DNA of 12,872 bases from contig CAUDNR010001450.1 of the NCBI GenBank assembly GCA_958430865.1, forward strand, positions 1,947 through 14,818. The letters run 5' to 3'. A program made the position numbers and the translations under genes. The notes beneath the pieces were generated by a model that had not been told where the DNA came from, made no database searches, and saw only the letters and a program-made list of their open reading frames with translations. This stretch comes from Entrophospora sp. SA101. Lineage: Eukaryota; Glomeromycota; Glomeromycetes; Entrophosporales; Entrophosporaceae. Shown in pieces: positions 514 to 11,423 of this stretch (within the stretch, counting starts at the first letter, position 1; each line of letters begins with the position of its first letter).

Positions 514-575
514 TTAAAAGATCCATTTATTTGTGATTGCGAAGAATAATCAAAATTCTAAAATAACCGGTTTAC

Positions 576-592
576 TATAAATTTTTTATAAA
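576..592 (+). promoter_or_regulatory. TATA-like elements of the peptide gene
   Basis: Two TATA motifs, TATAA at 576-580 and TATAAA at 587-592, lie 68-84 bp upstream of the ATG at 660. That would put transcription start at about 610-625, in the A-rich stretch before the ATG. The start codon context is ATCAAAATGA with A at -3, favourable for initiation. This is a motif match only. Confidence 0.5.
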
Positions 593-659
593 TTCCTCAA
601 CTGCATACAATTTGAAAAAAAAAACCAAAAATCGTTAAGAATTAACTGAACAAATCAAA

Positions 660-2265
660 ATGAAATTCAATATTTCTCTTCTCTTCTTGGCCATCTTTGC
701 TGTTGCTGCTTTAGCAAGTCCAATGGGCGATAACAATAATTTAGAGAAGCGAGGTATTTCATTTATTATTATATTACTATTACAATAAACATCATTATAG
801 CCAAATATCATTGTTTTTGAAAAAATACTAACTATTAGGTTTCATTTGATTTTAAATAATAAATAGTTCCGTAAGTATTTTTGTACTATTATTACAGTCA
901 AAATCATTGTTTTTGAAAACATATTAATTATTGATTTCATTTTATTCTAAATAATAATTAGAGCAGTTACTATTATTATATATAGTCAATATCATTGTTT
1001 TTGAAAACATATAACTGTTGATTGATTTTTTTGATCTATTTTAAATAATAAATAGCAAGTAAGTATTTTCATCATTTACTATTATTACAGTCAATATCAT
1101 TGTTTTTGAAAACATATTAACTGTTGATTGATTCTCGTTTTATTTTAAATAATGAATAGCCTGTAAGTATTTTCATCATTACTATTATTACAGTCAAAAT
1201 CATTGTTTTGAAAACATATTAACTGTTGATTGATTCTTGATTTATTTTAAATAATAAATAGGAAGTAAGTATTCGCTATTATTTATTATTATCATGGTCA
1301 ATATCATTGTTTTTGGAAACATATTAACTGCTAATTTTTACTTTATTTTAAATAATGAATAAGACTGTAAGTATTTTCATCATTACACTATCATTACAGT
1401 CAATATCATTGTTTTGAAAACATGTTAACCATTGATTGTTTTTTGTTTTATTTTAAATAATGAATAGCCTGTAAGTATTTTCATCATTCATTTATTATTA
1501 CAGTCGGTATCATTGATTTTGAAAACATATTAACTGTTGATTGATTTTGTTTTATTTTAAATAATGAATAGCCTGTAAGTATTTTCATCATTTACCATTA
1601 TTACAGTCAATATCATTGTTTTTGAAAACATATTAACTGCTAATTTTTACTTCATTTTAAATAATGAATAGGAAGTAAGTATTCACTATTATTTACTATT
1701 ATTACGGTCAATATCATTGTTTTTGAAAACATATTAACTGCTAATTTTTACTTTTATTTTAAATAATGAATAGCATGTAAATATTTTCATCATTCATTTA
1801 TTATTACAGTCAGTATCATTGTTTTTGAAAACATATTAACTGTTGATTGATTCCTGTTTTATTTTAAATAATAAATAGAAAGTAAGTATTTTCATCATTA
1901 CTATCATTATGGTCAATATCATTGTTTTTGAAAACATATCAACTGTTTGATTGATTCTCGTTTTATTTTAAATAATAAATAGAAAGTAAGTATTTTCATC
2001 AAAGCCAATATCATTGTTTTTGAAACATACTAACTATTAATTTTTATTTTATTTTATTTTAAATAATGAATAAGTCTGTAAGTATTTTTCATCATTACAC
2101 TATCATTACAGTCAATCATTGTTTTTGAAAAAATATTAACTGTTTGATTGATTTTTGTTTTATTAAATAATAATAGAAAGTAAGTATTCTCATCATTTCT
2201 ATTATTACAGTCAATATCATTGTTTTTGAAAACATATTAACTGTTTAATTTTCTCTTTATAGTAA
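660..2265 (+). CDS. Secreted peptide precursor built from single-codon microexons
   Basis: The product is a predicted 46-residue secreted precursor. Exon 1 (660-753) encodes residues 1-31. These are a signal peptide with hydrophobic core LLFLAIFAVAALA (cleavage likely after Ala19), then a short propeptide ending LEKR, a Kex2-type Lys-Arg site. Fourteen tiny exons then supply the mature peptide VPAQPETPPEHKKSK, and the last exon begins with the stop TAA (2263-2265). Each tiny exon lies between an AG acceptor and a GT donor; 12 of the 15 donors are GTAAGT. Lengths 94 + 4 + 4 + 12x3 = 138 nt keep the frame open, and any other acceptor choice at exon 3 breaks it. Weak points are donor 1 (GTATTT), donor 3 (GTTACT) and donor 11 (GTAAAT). 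The peptide is Pro/Glu/Lys-rich with no cysteine. A role as pheromone, effector or other signal is inference; I do not recognise the family. About 91% of the locus is intron. Confidence 0.85.
754..2262 (+). repeat. Array of 15 homologous introns separated by 3-4-nt exons
   Basis: Exon map: 867-870 TTCC, 962-965 AGCA, 1056 CAA, 1160 CCT, 1262 GAA, 1364 ACT, 1468 CCT, 1572 CCT, 1672 GAA, 1774 CAT, 1879 AAA, 1983 AAA, 2075 TCT, 2177 AAA, terminal exon from 2263. Single positions mark the first base of a 3-nt exon. The introns between are 83-113 nt and descend from one ancestor. Each carries a variant of TCAATATCATTGTTTTTG, then a branch-site-like ATTAACTG, CTAAT or CTAAC, a T-rich stretch, and AAATAAT(G/A)AATAG before the exon. 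Direct-repeat period is about 92-117 bp. Intron 6 resembles intron 10, and intron 7 resembles intron 14, more than their neighbours. Confidence 0.92.
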
Positions 2266-3110
2266 ACAAGGCTGTATTTGCTCTTTGGTTCTTTGACAGC
2301 TTCATTTATACTTTAATTTTTGGTTGTAAAAATATTATAAACTGTACTCTTCTTTTTACTTTTATCTTTTATTTTTTATTGGATATTATAATTTTTACGT
2401 TGCATAAGGTTCTCATGCAAACGATAATGTTTATTTTACAACATAGAAAGCAAAAATAAATAAATCAAATTTATACATAATAAGTGTTTATTATAATTCA
2501 AAAAAGCAAGTTTTATGTGTCAATATAAATGTGGAATGAAAAGAAATAAAGTTGTGTTTGATAAAAGAGTTAAATAATAATAATAAGACGAAAATCTAAC
2601 AGTAGACAACGGTAGACACTGAAAAAAACCCCCCATCTGAAGCGAAACATGATTTAAGTCAAATCTCTGCTTCGCTCAGCCTGATGTTTTGAACAAAAAT
2701 GGATAAATTTTTCGGGAATTCGCATGATACGGTGATGTAAAAATAATCGCAACCATTTATCATTTTCGGAAAACGAAAATTTCATCAATTTCAAGCTAGC
2801 ATAGCAAAAAAAGAAAAAACGACCTCTGATTTACTGAAGCTGAGAAATAAAAATGTTTAAAAGATTTGTAAACCGAGTTTACTGTTTCAAGTTAATATTT
2901 ACCATGTAACAAAACATTTCAAATTTGGGTAAAATTGTTAGATTAGGGAAAACATAAAAGAAAAAAATTACACAAATATAAAAATCTATGACATTTGGAA
3001 AGGAACCATAACACAGAAACCTTTCTTTCTTTTCTTTTTTTTTACGTTAAATAATATAATTGTTATTCTCAAAAACACCAAGTCAAATTTATATATTATA
3101 TCTTTATATA
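2266..3110. other. 3' UTR of the peptide gene and intergenic DNA
   Basis: The stretch after the TAA is T-rich with several AATAAA-type polyadenylation signals (about 2453-2464 and 2541-2550). At 2762-2780 there is a perfect 7-bp inverted repeat (ATTTTCG, 5-nt loop, CGAAAAT). A looser inverted pair, CTGAAGCGAA against TTCGCTCAG, lies near 2637-2680. No gene or RNA gene is evident. The A/T-rich DNA before 3111 presumably holds the kinase promoter. Confidence 0.55.
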
Positions 3111-4643
3111 ATGTCATATGATAAGCTATTATTATCATTGTCACCAGAAAGAAAGGAATTTGTATATAAAATTTATATTGAAATACTTAATGATGCAGCA
3201 GTTAATTCTGATAGAGAAAGTAGAAAAGATTATTTTTTTTCATTGGTTGAAAAAAACAAGGAGTTTACTGAAAATGAAAAAGAATATTGTAAGGAAAGGT
3301 TTATTTATAATTTTGAATTAAATAATGCAAAAAATAAAGGGGGAAAACCAAAAGAATGTAACAAGTGCAAATTGACAAGATATTCTGATAGATTCTGTGA
3401 AGGTTGCATCAGTTTACAACTACAGTGTCTTTTTACCACTTGGACATCTGGAAATAACATAATTGATGATTTTATTCAACAATGTCAAATGAAATCATCT
3501 CTACCAAACTATATTTTAGAATGGATACCTTTTGAGCAATTTGAAAAAGTAACAAAGTTGACAGAAGGTGGATTTAGTTCGATTTATACTGCTACATGTA
3601 TAAGAGGGAGTATTGATGATTATGATGAAAATAAAAAGGAATTTAATTATTTCGGGAGGCACAAAGTAGTATTGAAAAGTTTAAATGGTTCAAGTAATCC
3701 AGGAAAAGTTTTTTTTGATGAGGTTGGTAGTTATCATTTAAACAAAATAAACAATATTGTATTATATAATACCAATTGATTTTATATTTAATTTCAGGCA
3801 ATGAATTATTGTAAAATTAAATCGAATTCAATTGTTACTTGCTATGGTATAACTAAATTCCCAAATAATGGAAATTATGCAATGGTTTTAAATCATCATT
3901 CAGAAGGAAATTTAAGGGGTTATTTGCAAAAAAATCATTTAAATTTAACGTTAAACAACAGAATTACAATCTTTTATTATTTATGTTTTGCATTAAATGA
4001 TATACATCAAAAAGATTTAATTCATTGTGATTTACATAGTGGTAATTTATTATTGCAAGGAGGTGGTTGTTATGTTACAGATTTGGGATTATGTGGACCA
4101 GTTGATGAAAAGTCATCAAATAAAGTCTATGGAATTATATCATATGTTGCACCTGAGCTACTTGGAGGCAAAAAGAATGCAAAAAATACAAAAGAAACTG
4201 ATATATATAGTGTTGGGATGTTAATGTGGGAAATATTTGCAGGCCATCCACCATTTGATGATAGAGCTCACAATCATTGCTTGATTTTTGATATATGTGA
4301 AGAAGGTTTACGACCACCAATATTACCTGATATGCCTGATGATTATGCAAAAATGATGCAGAGGTGTTGGGATGTGGATCCATCAAAAAGACCAACTAGT
4401 AGAGAGCTTTGGACATTTGCTGCTAATAAACATGATGAAATTGTTAAAAACAATGATGATAATGATAATAATGATAATAGTAATAATGGTAGTAGTGATT
4501 CGCAACGAGTACACAAATCACATCCAGATGCATATCATACAAGTAGAATATTAGATGAAGAAATTGCTAAATCTAAGGGCTTTAAAAGTTATACAAGTAA
4601 TGATAGTTTGTTAAATAATCTTGGTTTTAACTCTTTTCTCTAG
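3111..4643 (+). CDS. TKL-type protein kinase with N-terminal Cys4 motif
   Basis: Two exons, 3111-3722 and 3798-4643, give 485 residues. The 75-nt intron (GTTGGT...CAG) is phase 0, and its removal restores the alphaC region as FFDEAMNYC running into IVTCYGIT. The N-terminal third holds a zinc-ribbon-like C-x2-C-x9-C-x2-C (Cys83, 86, 96, 99). The kinase domain starts at about residue 140: glycine loop TEGGFSSIY (152-159; first Gly of the usual GxGxxS replaced by Thr), catalytic Lys189 in VVLK, HCD catalytic loop (His280, Asp282, Asn287), DLG (299-301), APE (322-324), then DIYSVGMLMWE and a C-lobe ending at the invariant Arg of PSKRPT. These features predict an active Ser/Thr-type kinase. The C-terminal tail has an Asn/Asp repeat and HPDAYHTSRIL, a tail typical of the expanded Glomeromycotina kinases. 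The substrate is unknown. An in-frame ATG at 3060 would add 17 residues; 3111 is preferred because conserved-looking sequence begins there. Confidence 0.88.
4440..4497 (+). repeat. AAT/GAT trinucleotide tract in the kinase tail
   Basis: A run of AAT, GAT and AGT triplets encodes an Asn/Asp/Ser-rich linker between the kinase C-lobe and the HPDAYHTSR tail motif. Its length is likely to vary between strains because it is triplet-based and stays in frame. Confidence 0.7.
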
Positions 4644-6577: not shown

Positions 6578-9500
6578 ATGGCTTCGGAAAGAGAAGGGTT
6601 TTTTGGTAGAGCCTTAAAGTAACTAATTATTCGTCAAATTTCTTTATATATCAATTAAAATTCTCAAGAAAACATTAAAATATTTTAATTTTGATTAATG
6701 TAGTTTATGGAATTTGTTTCAACATGAATATACACCATTGAGCGCACGTGGTAGTAGGCATTTTCGCGTAAATAGCTCTAGTTCTAACAGTAAAAGTAAC
6801 AGTAATATTGATGTTAGGGGTGGTGGTAATAATCATTATTATGATAATGATACACTGGAAGAAATTAAAAAATATGAAGATTTCACAACAATTGGTGGAG
6901 TAATATTATAATTTCATTATTTTATAATAAAATTTAACTAAATTAATTGAAATTATCATCATCATCATCATCATTATAAAATGTATATAATTGATCTTTC
7001 GTTGTTGATCGGGATTTTTTTTTGTTTTTAATAGATTGGGTCCAAGATGCAATACATGAAAGGTCAAGATTGAATTCATTAAGAAGGACTGCTGCTGCTA
7101 ATGGAAATCGATCTCCTTGGAGTAGTTGGTTAAAACTTTCATATGAAGCTGGTCAAGCATGGATAGTCGTATCTATAGTGGGTTTGTATTCCATAAAAAT
7201 ATGTAAATATAAATATTGCTTTTAATTAATTATCTATATATTACTTTAAATATTATTATTAGGCGCACTGATTGGTTTGAATGCAGCATTAATAGATATT
7301 ATTACGGAATGGCTTGCAGATATAAAAATGGGATATTGTAAAAATTCATGGTGGTTAAATCAAAAATTTTGTTGTTGGGAAATTGAAAAAGAAGGTCTGT
7401 TGTTCTCAAAAGTGAAAGTGAGGGTGACAGAGATATATATATTACAAGCCTGCTTATTAATTAGTTTCTTTGGTATTAATTAGATGGATCTTGTGAAGAA
7501 TGGCAAAATTGGTCATCATATTTTATAATAAATTGGATTTTCTTTATTTTTTTTGCGGTAACTTATTTATTTTTTAAATGCTTTTTTCCTGTTTTTAATC
7601 AATTAAAAATTTAAATTTATAAACATACCTAAATGATATTTTTTATCAATTTATTATTTTTAGACATTGTTTGCTGCAGCTTGTGCGCATACGATTCGTA
7701 TTTTTGCTCCTTATGCTGCTGGATCTGGCATTTCGGAAATTAAATGTATTTTAGCAGGGTTTGTTATGAAAGAATTTTTAGGTGGTAGGACTTTATTATT
7801 GAAAAGTATTGGCTTGGTAATTAATCAATTATATATATAGCTTTTATTGTTTTATTTTTTAATGAAAAGATAGATATTATTATCTATTTATCTTATAAAA
7901 TGCATATATTATAATAATAAATCTATAATAATTTCTGTTAATTAGCCATTGGCGATTGCATCAGGATTAAGTATTGGTAAAGAAGGTCCATCAGTACATA
8001 CAGCTGCTTGTATTGGAAATGTTGTTTCAAGATTATTTGGAAAGTATAAAATAAACAAAGGTACTATCACAATCACTGCTACAAATAACAATAACAATAG
8101 AATGATGATTATTGAATAAAAATGTTTACATGTTATTTTTGTTGATAGCTAAAATGAGAGAAATTACATCTGCATCTTGTGCAGCTGGTGTTGCTGTTGC
8201 TTTCGGATCACCAATTGGTGGTGTTTTATTTTCTTACGAGGTAAGTAGCTCATAATATAATTCTCTTCGTTCCATTCTTATTCTCATTATCGATTTTTGA
8301 TTAAAAAAAAAATTTTTTTTTTTTTGTAGGAAATGAGTTCAAATTTTCCAATGAAAACAATGTGGAGAAGTTTCTTTTGTGCATTAGTTGCAACTGTTGT
8401 ATTACAAGTAATTACAATCAATTTCCAATTGCCATGGTAGTCAAATTTATTATCATAAATATATAATTAATAAAAATTTTTAGGCAATGAATCCTTTTAG
8501 AACTGGTAAATTGGTAATGTTCCAAGTTGAGTACGATCGGGATTGGCATTTCTTTGAAATCTTTTTCTTTATAATATTAGGAATATTTGGTGTGAGTTAT
8601 TGATACGGGTTTTTTATATAAAATGAAATAATAACTCTTTATCATCATCGTCCTCATCTCGTACTAATCATTGTCATAAATATTTATAGGGTTTATATGG
8701 CGCACTGGTTATTAGATATAATCTAATGATTCAATCATTTCGTAAAAAATTCCTTCTAAAAGACTACTATGCAGTTTATGAGGCTGCTATACTTGCTTCC
8801 ATAACAGCACTTATTGGGTACCTTAATATATTTATGAAAATGGATATGACTGAAACTTTGGGAATTTTATTTCAAGAATGTGAAACAAAAACTCATGATT
8901 ATGAAGGTTTATGCAAGTATGTTGAGTATTGGAATTTGTGAGGAATTGGGAATTGAAATATTTAATGCTTATGCTCACTATTCACCTATGATATATATGT
9001 GATGTATAATATTTAGGGATTCTGAAATGTTTAGAATGGCTTGTTTATTATTTATAGCAACAGTTTTACGTTTTGGATTTATTATAATCACTTACGGAAC
9101 AAAAGTATTTGTTTATTCTTCTAATAATAATATAAATCTAATAATAATGATGGTGATGATTACAATATTTCAAAATACTAAATCTTAAAATCTCAATTAA
9201 TTAATAAATTAATTGTAGGTTCCAGCTGGTATATTTATTCCTTCGATGGCTGTTGGTGCAACTTTTGGTAGATTTTTAGGACTTTTTGTTAAGGCTTTAT
9301 ATATGTAAAATACTATTTAATTACATTTTGTGTGTTTTGTCATGTATGATAGATACTGTAAATATATTAATTATTAATTATTTTATCTAGAGCATATCCT
9401 GAATTTCCACTATTTGCAAGCTGTAAACCTGATGTCCCTGTTAGTATCAAATATATATTTATACGTATGCTTTGAGTTTTTTTTCAATTAACTTTCAATA

Positions 9501-11419
9501 TTAATTTATTTATACATTTTATTATGAAAAAAAAATTTTTTGAACTTTAGTGTGTCACACCGGGAATGTACGCATTTTTGGGTGCTGCTGCTGCACTTGG
9601 GTGTGTAATTAATTATATACTTGTTGAAATTTATCATTTTATATTTTTTAGTATTATTATATTAAAATTTAATTAAATATTTTTTTATAAATTAGTGGGG
9701 TTATGCATCTCACAGGTACTATTATCATTCTTTATTATTATTATTATTCAATAAAAAAAAATAAAAATGTTAAATCTATTTTAAAAATTAAAAACTTTAT
9801 AGTTTGTATAGTTGTTATTATGTTTGAGTTGACTGGTGCTTTAACTTACATATTACCAACAATGGTGACTTGATTCATTAATAATACATTTATCTTTCTA
9901 TTTCTGTTTCTATTTCTCTTTATCTTGATACTTACGCACATGTGATTATTTGATATATACAGATTACTTTGATGGTTACCAAGACAGTTGGTGATTTATT
10001 TGGAAAAGGTGGAATATATCCTTTAATTTTTAAAAATTTTTCTCTCGCCTACCCAAATTCCTGCGCTATAATTACTTGTTTATTATTCATTTATTTAATT
10101 ATTTCCCCTTAATTGGTTTTTTTTTTTTTAATTAATTTACTGCTGACCAAATGATAAGATCAAATGGATTTCCATTTTTGGATAAAGAAGAATATACATT
10201 TGGTGTTCCAGGTTAGTTGAATGGGATTATTTTTTTTAAATAATTTCTCCTTCCAAGATTGTATTATATAAATATATATTTGTTTATTGTTTTGGTGATG
10301 ATTATATGATAGTTGCAACCATTATGAGAAAAAATCTTACAGTAATGACAGCATCAGGATTAAAATTGGACGAAATTGGTAATAATAATAATAAAGGAGT
10401 ATATGTTATTATTATTATTTTTAATCCTTTATTTAAAAAAAAAAGATTAATTTTTATTTTTTTTTATGTATAATATTAAAAAAAATCAGAACGAATATTA
10501 TCAGAATCAAATTTTCAAGGGTTTCCAGTGGTACAAGATAAAAGAAGTATGCAACTTTTAGGACATATAGGACGTCCTGAACTGAAATACGCAATTGGTA
10601 ACTAATCCAACTAATTATGGTTTTATTTGATATTTATATACATTAACTTATATATTTATTTGTATTATGGAATGAATAAATTAGATAAAGCAAAAAGAAT
10701 AAAAGGAACATCAATTGGAACTGCGCATTGTTTTTTTAACAGTTTTGATGATTTTAATAATAATAGCATTTATGTTACTACTAATAATGATCCTGATGTT
10801 GGTGGTGGTGATGGAGAAAGTAGTAATAGCAGTTCATCTAATTTTATAGATTTTGGTCCTTTTGTTGATCAGGTAATTACTAACAAAACAATGATTGTTG
10901 CTTAATTATGAATAATTATTACTACTTGCACAACTTTTTAAAACAATGATTAATTAATAATAAGACGCCTATAACGGTGAATCCTCGTTTGCCATTAGAA
11001 ACCGTCATGGATTTATTTAAGAAAATGGGGTGGGTAATTGATTCCATAAAAACAATTATATTGATTTCAAAATTTTTCTTTTAATTGATACATTTTTTTT
11101 AATTTGATTTTAGGCCAAGAGTAATATTAATTGAACATATAGATAGATTAGTTGGTTTGATTACTGTTAAAGATTTATTAAAATATATTGCAAAAAAAGA
11201 AGCTGAAGATGATGCTGACTTGGATGATGATAATGATGACGACGACGACGACGAGGAGGATAATGATGATGATGACTTGGATGGTGATGATGATAATGAT
11301 GATGAATATGATGATGAATATGATGATGGAAATAATAATTTAAAACTAAAGTCAAGACAAAAAAAACCTAGTAATAATAATAATTATTATAATAATATTT
11401 CATTAACAGCGCCATCATC

Positions 11420-11423
<4 letters not shown>
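6578..11423 (+). CDS. CLC-family chloride/proton exchanger (Gef1/CLC-3-5-like)
   Basis: Twenty-four exons give 857 residues. CLC proteins of this clade exchange two Cl- for one H+ across endosomal, vacuolar or Golgi membranes, supporting acidification and metal homeostasis. Visible motifs are [17 protein letters not shown] before the first helix; GSGISE (215-220; usually GSGIPE); GKEGPSVH with gating Glu259; [13 protein letters not shown] with Glu316, 57 residues later, the spacing of the gating and proton glutamates in CLC-5; GIFIP (486-490); and ELTGALTY with the central pore Tyr566. Two CBS domains follow, the first from about 613-670 and the second from about 734-780, separated by a Gly/Ser/Asn-rich linker. 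The tail at 784-827 is almost all Asp/Glu. Both glutamates imply an exchanger rather than a channel. The start at 6578 lies in a 41-nt first exon, and all junctions keep phase. A Gef1 orthologue is likely, so I give no symbol. Confidence 0.95.
6955..6974 (+). repeat. (ATC)6 microsatellite in CLC intron 2
   Basis: Six perfect ATC triplets followed by AT lie within intron 2 (6895-7034). They have no coding effect. Confidence 0.85.
10016..10140 (+). other. U12-type AT-AC intron (CLC intron 18)
   Basis: Exon 18 ends GGTGGAAT and exon 19 resumes TGCTGACCAA. Joining them gives [15 protein letters not shown], the expected CLC sequence after the last membrane helix. No GT-AG pair can do this because no AG precedes the join. 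The intron begins with ATATCCTTT, identical to the minor-spliceosome 5' consensus, and ends in AC. CCCCTTAAT at 10105-10113 fits the U12 branch consensus TTCCTTRAY in seven of nine positions. Its branch A sits about 28 nt from the 3' end, somewhat farther than usual. Known biology: such introns need U11/U12/U4atac/U6atac snRNAs, retained in only some fungi. Confidence 0.88.
11200..11335 (+). repeat. GAT/GAC repeat coding the CLC acidic tail
   Basis: Triplet-rich DNA (GAT, GAC, GAG, AAT) encodes a run dominated by Asp with Glu, Asn and a few Tyr, ending in two [12 protein letters not shown] copies. It follows the second CBS domain directly. The sequence after it (LKLKSRQKK) is basic, giving a sharp charge switch. 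Confidence 0.85.

Follow-up and report, generated by a model that had tools for sequence, protein, structure and literature searches.

A predicted gene family of Entrophospora sp. SA101 whose putative secreted peptides may be encoded one codon per exon

Very small exons have been described in several systems. The homothorax gene of Drosophila reportedly contains a 3-bp exon, and MPC1 is said to carry one of 4 bp. In recursive splicing, ratchet points set an acceptor directly against a donor, and a long interval is removed stepwise with no exon left. A 1-nt exon is described for APC11 of Arabidopsis (PMC4674806), and in plants a pair of neighbouring microexons, 5 and 12 nt long, has been noted (PMC8831610). 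In the micro-exon genes (MEGs) of schistosomes, symmetric exons of 6-36 bp make up about 80% of the coding region (PMC5825161). The bicycle genes of aphids have about 17 exons on average, with internal exons almost all of phase 2; the family, megacycle included, has one gene with more than 100 microexons, and some of its products are found in secreted saliva (PMC9168663). SP7-like effectors of arbuscular mycorrhizal fungi are secreted, contain repeats and have one conserved intron before the first repeat (PMC11333574). These descriptions follow the parts of the cited papers that were drawn on here.

The window, i.e. the whole stretch of 12,872 nt from Entrophospora sp. SA101 that was analysed, carries a predicted gene for a secreted peptide. 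A leader is followed by units of about 100 nt that bear one codon each between splice-site sequences. As judged from the sequence, it is very probable that the introns of these units are removed one by one, so that almost every residue behind the leader would be encoded by a separate exon. The features are the following.

545-659, plus strand: 5' flank, whose TTTTTTATAAAT box (582-593) is a conserved family element (letters of the box above 80% in a consensus built from 24 distinct upstream regions)
660-753, plus strand: exon 1 of 94 nt, signal-peptide-like leader with KR site, MKFNISLLFLAIFAVAALASPMGDNNNLEKR plus 1 nt (open frame with a GTATTT donor at 754; leader matched 63 times across the genome)
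754-2262, plus strand: introns, as tandem units of about 100 nt with GTAAGTATT donor, TATTAACTG branch motif and TAAATAATAAATAG acceptor (period-104 repeat; unit features)
867-870, plus strand: exon 2, TTCC, 4 nt (AG before, GTAAGT after)
962-965, plus strand: exon 3, AGCA, 4 nt, bringing the phase back to 0; weak donor GTTACT (AG/GT flanks)
1056-1058, plus strand: exon 4, CAA (Q) (AG/GT flanks)
1160-1162, plus strand: exon 5, CCT (P) (AG/GT flanks)
1262-1264, plus strand: exon 6, GAA (E) (AG/GT flanks)
1364-1366, plus strand: exon 7, ACT (T) (AG/GT flanks)
1468-1470, plus strand: exon 8, CCT (P) (AG/GT flanks)
1572-1574, plus strand: exon 9, CCT (P) (AG/GT flanks)
1672-1674, plus strand: exon 10, GAA (E) (AG/GT flanks)
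1774-1776, plus strand: exon 11, CAT (H), donor GTAAAT (AG/GT flanks)
1879-1881, plus strand: exon 12, AAA (K) (AG/GT flanks)
1983-1985, plus strand: exon 13, AAA (K) (AG/GT flanks)
2075-2077, plus strand: exon 14, TCT (S) (AG/GT flanks)
2177-2179, plus strand: exon 15, AAA (K) (AG/GT flanks)
2263-2480, plus strand: terminal exon, TAA first, then 3' UTR with putative 3' end (AG 2261-2262; homologous tail in paralogues)

The initial annotation had proposed exon 1, 14 blocks of 3 or 4 nt and a terminal exon within 660-2265, and all its coordinates and lengths hold on re-reading. Each of the blocks (two of 4 nt and twelve of 3 nt) is indeed preceded by AG and followed by GT, and the donor, said to be mostly GTAAGT, has this form in 12 of 14 cases, the others being GTTACT after AGCA and GTAAAT after CAT. 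The claimed closure of the frame matches exactly: 94 + 4 + 4 + 36 = 138 nt are followed by the TAA that opens the terminal exon, giving a 141-nt open frame with a single terminal stop and the predicted joined product MKFNISLLFLAIFAVAALASPMGDNNNLEKR followed by VPAQPETPPEHKKSK and the stop. Microexons contribute 44 of the 138 coding nt. The tandem repeat has a period of 104 nt, and the terminal acceptor (AG 2261-2262) is the first AG 3' of the branch motif. There are two weak points: the GTTACT donor after exon 3 is poor, paralogues such as L010 having GTAAGTT there, and the array string is without stops in two of three frames, the predicted frame not being alone. Pfam gave no match for the product of the window gene and none above the cut-off for that of its paralogue L028, and Rfam at gathering thresholds gave no match within the window.

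Other features of the window include a separate tandem repeat with a period of 35/70 upstream of the gene (74-249), a protein kinase gene (3111-4643; Pfam PF07714/PF00069 in the part 3801-4640), for which 212 close relatives were found at E <= 0.001 among 462 candidates in public data, and an intron-rich gene (about 7040-11420). The latter presumably encodes a ClC chloride channel, as its reading with a GKEGP motif resembles one; Pfam searches of two short pieces of this gene gave nothing above the cut-off.

The genome carries dozens of genes of this family, some with more than 30 predicted single-codon exons, which had been missed in the initial annotation. In the same genome the leader peptide has 63 matches with E <= 1, every one of the 63 candidates having been scored, and a DNA search of this genome (101 Mb, 2,123 contigs) returned at least 97 matching pieces (40 of 103 candidates scored). 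Regions around DNA matches (37) and, later, around leader matches (15) were analysed. The main statistics refer to the 37 regions and the window (38 oriented loci); from the later 15, only L048, L053, L055 and L057 are used in the argument, each by name. Left out of all counts are L046, L047, L049-L052, L056 and L058-L060, which are short or nearly unit-free, and L054, which has five weak calls, with a stop in one frame and two frames open. The leader was judged by eye to be of the hydrophobic signal type (putative signal peptide), and it is conserved across the family together with the TATA-like box. In most members it ends in a KR-type site, a point also missed earlier; KR is not universal, its place being taken by ER in L015 and L016, SR in L027 and MR in L037.

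The 39 gene models contain 840 called units, 698 of them of 3 nt, each model having between 10 and 53 when zero-length units are counted, and predict 35 distinct products. These abound in C, P, E, D, G and K, and the predicted peptides of one subfamily are cysteine-rich. Barring a stop at or near the end, 33 of the 39 models are open from ATG through the called microexons, L033-L035 and L042 being counted as open after re-reading of the exon-1 boundary by eye. The six broken models are L017 and L018, with a stop within exon 1, both L039 models, whose exon 1 is out of frame, L021, without a called exon 2, and L043, which contains a frame-shifting unit. The arrays of L009, L015, L016, L024, L025 and L045 have gaps of about 2-5 units with no exon above the threshold, so their predicted strings are incomplete. 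A search with the predicted L028 precursor for an intronless copy in the genome gave 62 rows, not one of which spanned the whole query; all start within the first four residues and reach residue 50 at most, the longest being weak extensions of 47-63% identity. Among 65 pattern matches in viral contigs, none was a relative of the family.

The arrays of L030 and L040, which lie on different contigs, break off at one common position and run into an unrelated sequence, shared by the two, that repeats the TGGTATATACC motif, as if an insertion had truncated them or they had been copied together with it. Inside the intron of one L033 unit, at about 3000-3180 of the reverse complement, sits what looks like a small transposon, an insert whose ends are inverted (CTAAAGACTAGTGCCGTAA...TTACGGCACTAGTCTTTA).

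Units were called with splice-site matrices trained on strong sites, the exon length being free between 0 and 15 nt, which gave 825 calls in the 38 oriented loci, 19 on the reverse strands and 0 in one set of Markov shuffles. With exact copies counted once and near-copies not collapsed, there are 490 unique contexts, of which 398 have exactly 3 nt between AG and GT/GC, 29 zero, 24 four, 11 one and 28 other lengths (2 or 5-12 nt); as predicted coding exons they lie far below 51 nt and have canonical sites. Nine 8-nt calls consist of AGTG, ATTG or AGCA and a following GTAA or GTAG, where an earlier donor would give 4 nt. The 449 unique introns have a mean length of 96 nt, the shortest being 74 nt and the longest 129 nt where lengths of 60 to 135 nt were admitted, with remainders of 0, 1 and 2 on division by three in 117, 158 and 174 cases. 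An acceptor abutting a donor, as in recursive splicing, is thus not the general state of the arrays, the 29 zero-length contexts lying at array 3' ends. There, AG abuts GTAAGT or GCAAGT in L010, L013, L014, L021, L027, L028, L031, L043 and L044, and such units, repeatedly the last two or three before the terminal exon, look like recursive splice sites.

Units with the same surroundings usually differ in their codon. Among unit pairs with identical 25+25-nt flanks, 259 of 296 (87.5%) carry different codons, although unit and pair counts are not independent events because units share descent. Close paralogues also differ by whole units: compared with L010, L013 lacks four units, while L026 exceeds L011 by one CGG and L018 falls short of L017 by one GTT.

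Outside the phase-shifted C65-type subfamily, none of the 372 unique triplets is a stop, where 16.7 stops are expected from position-specific composition (13.8 without TAG); inside this subfamily one of 26 unique triplets is TGA. Gene by gene the frame test is weak, since a second frame of the array is often stop-free, and its force comes from the pooled triplets. The lengths of exons 2 and 3 vary (4+4, 4+1, 1+1, 4+7), and their sum is 2 mod 3 in all 34 models of the other subfamilies with both exons called, the 8- and 11-nt calls being re-read to the earlier GT donor. The phase-shifted loci (L033-L035 and L042, which are mutual near-copies, L053 and L055) are the best natural control for the frame. 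They have no phase-restoring exon 3, their triplets show a one-base rotation, and the frame that exon 1 sets is open (DCDPDPHSIDPCPVF..., DCE, ...DPPIQHDFPICC...), whereas reading the triplets as codons meets TGA in five of the six, the exception being the short L053; because four are near-copies, the six count as three independent loci. In L033-L035 and L042 the exon-1 donor, GTGAGT, follows after 85 nt. The open cysteine-rich members L031, L036 and L038 have a stop across an exon junction (T joined to AG or to AA), which comes after exons of 7 to 12 nt. Terminal stops were found in 21 of 21 cases, which is not an independent count because the terminal acceptors of paralogues were located by a pattern that includes the stop.

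Codon choice in the microexons differs from that of long open frames. The K, E and Q codons end in AA versus AG in a ratio of 68:0, compared with 355:66 in long open frames (p = 3e-5), and fourfold codons without Gly end in T versus A in a ratio of 90:1, compared with 189:271 in the background (p = 3e-29), both p-values ignoring shared descent; with Gly included, the ratios are 108:10 and 231:313, GGA occurring nine times. The background was taken from 19 stop-to-stop frames of at least 180 codons, several of which span masked N and are perhaps not genes; the kinase alone as background gives 67:17 for NAA versus NAG, and CCT 4 times versus CCA 13 times. It is as if a competing acceptor were avoided, with codons shunning a final AG and, where a T-ending synonym exists, a final A, because A and the G of the donor would make AG. 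The branch motif, with two substitutions at most, is present in 438 of the 449 unique introns at a median of 37 nt from the acceptor, and the stretch between them is AG-free in 411 of the 438. AG occurs 0.18 times per 100 nt downstream of the branch motif, where 2.6 are expected from composition, and 1.51 times upstream. TTACAG inside the unit was ruled out as an acceptor, as it lies upstream of the branch motif and AG is depleted only downstream.

When the L028 precursor was compared with 5.8 billion proteins, two candidates were returned, both matches (P0001 and P0002), and a profile from ten sequences, P0002 included, found only the same two proteins among 60 candidates. P0001 reads on into intron 1, and the composition of its tail favours intron read-through by 60.7 bits. 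P0002 has the leader joined straight to a W/C/D-rich tail, RLPTVWCWDEQWAQWYDCRDPYVSE, with no intron read-through. In composition this tail fits microexons better than intron read-through by 46.1 bits, and better than the neighbouring kinase by 11.5 bits; P0002 probably derives from spliced RNA. A distant relative, L048:742-1403 (reverse complement of the region), has internal exons of 27, 6, 3 and 3 nt with the same acceptor and donor type as the family and a frame that closes to a stop, the exons being chosen by eye, and may represent an intermediate state. Around position 181 of L057 there is a similar leader with KR, where the open frame continues past KR and is cysteine-containing, with 95 residues. 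The exon sizes of L048 and the open frame of L057 past KR suggest that the introns of the family multiplied between ever smaller coding pieces.

The interpretation of the blocks as single-codon microexons, put forward in the initial annotation, is thus supported by the closure of the frame, the pooled absence of stops, the rotated triplets and the codon bias, and it is also fitted by the branch motif with its AG-free zone and by the contiguous public protein P0002. The array might instead be one large minisatellite intron, with exon 1 spliced to the terminal exon and the AG-NNN-GT blocks acting as decoys, as splice-like sites can be copied by a tandem repeat; in the window gene the tail opened by joining exon 1 to the terminal exon would then be 65 residues long, and L010, L013, L014, L027, L028 and L031 have tails of a similar kind with 40 residues (INRLYLLFGS... 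and near variants). This tail, however, is not family-wide, having 8-17 residues in L009, L015, L016, L024, L025 and L045, 11 in L019 and L020, and another sequence in L023 (43 residues) and L029 (54 residues). The 0 of 372 stops, the bias against AG, the rotated triplets and the variable codons in constant flanks are also left unexplained, and a decoy-filled intron, rejected on the absence of stops, the codon bias and the unshared tail, is considered very improbable. A product read through intron 1 was likewise rejected, since the open frame that contains the leader varies in length between 34 and 105 residues in the 63 copies. It is also very improbable that most arrays are relics of a once-expressed family, now decaying as repeats: six of the 39 models show obvious breaks, and there are arrays that are truncated or have inserts in them, but the other 33 are open, the leader and the TATA-like box are conserved, and 411 of 438 introns have kept their AG-free zone.

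A different possibility is that the microexons are real and used combinatorially, subsets being skipped to give a mixture of peptides per gene. Since exons 4-15 are all of 3 nt and phase 0, any subset of them keeps the frame and the TAA, so that the window alone could give 2^12 subsets, and schistosome micro-exon genes are described, in the part of PMC5825161 used here, as varying proteins by alternative splicing. On the other hand, the near-uniform consensus splice sites across units favour constant inclusion, and stretches with an evident order, for example KEELAALRAALREKFLAEL in L027, give the impression of fixed products; combinatorial use is therefore regarded as a tentative and rather doubtful explanation.

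In the preferred reading, which is considered reasonably likely in this full form, each codon is an exon, the spliceosome walks along near-identical introns, and recombination shuffles single codons with the frame intact. A 3-nt exon is too small for exon definition, so each intron would be recognised across itself, i.e. by intron definition. Given their size, two spliceosomes could hardly occupy one 3-nt exon simultaneously, which makes intron definition with removal step by step the likeliest route. The spliced upstream exon would present the next donor, as in recursive splicing, but with 3 nt retained, and the introns would be removed stepwise, likely in the 5'-to-3' direction, with one codon added to the message per step; the zero-length units at the array 3' ends would fit a recursive step. 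The precursor would enter the secretory path, and a Kex2-like protease may cleave it behind the KR-type site and so release a short peptide of hypervariable sequence. Whole codons might be added, dropped or swapped through unequal crossing-over or exon skipping, which would make the array a peptide-diversifying device, whose frame would survive the gain, loss or swap of units because almost every unit is phase-neutral.

If the genes are spliced as predicted, a dozen to more than 30 consecutive 3-nt exons would be handled faithfully, which would test the limits of exon recognition and the steric room for the spliceosome, and would provide a clean natural system in which to study intron definition and the order in which introns are removed. 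The arrays would also be a frame-safe route to peptide diversification, in which every recombination between units changes whole codons, and would form a fast-diversifying, peptide-writing secreted family without a known counterpart in kind. Similar families may be missed elsewhere because they would be hard for standard annotation and short-read mapping to detect. The initial annotation took a run of twelve single-codon exons to be undescribed, and no run of such exons was found in the open-licence literature as far as it was searched.

The exons of APC11, homothorax and MPC1 indicate that spliceosomes can include exons of 1-4 nt, as single exons in ordinary genes. Unlike at ratchet points, 3 nt would be retained here at most steps, with 29 of 490 unique contexts being zero-length. 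The SP7-like effectors differ from the present family in its single-codon exons, none being named for them in the part of PMC11333574 used here. The schistosome MEGs, with their secreted or membrane-anchored products, resemble it in having short symmetric exons and expanded families, whereas here nearly all exons are of 3 nt and lie in tandem copies of one intron unit; the two are set apart by description, as far as the source was used, since the exons here, though symmetric, are of 3 nt rather than 6-36 bp and account in the window gene for 44 of the 138 coding nt rather than about 80%. Like the bicycle genes, as described in the part of the source used, the present genes have numerous family members, are putative effector genes and are divided into many small exons that share a phase, but this phase is 0 in the main subfamilies (phase 2 in one subfamily), each exon holds one codon, and the models have 10 to 53 called units. 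MEGs and bicycle genes are thus the nearest kinds; like the exons of 1-4 nt and the ratchet points, they share parts of the design of this family, and none shares the whole.
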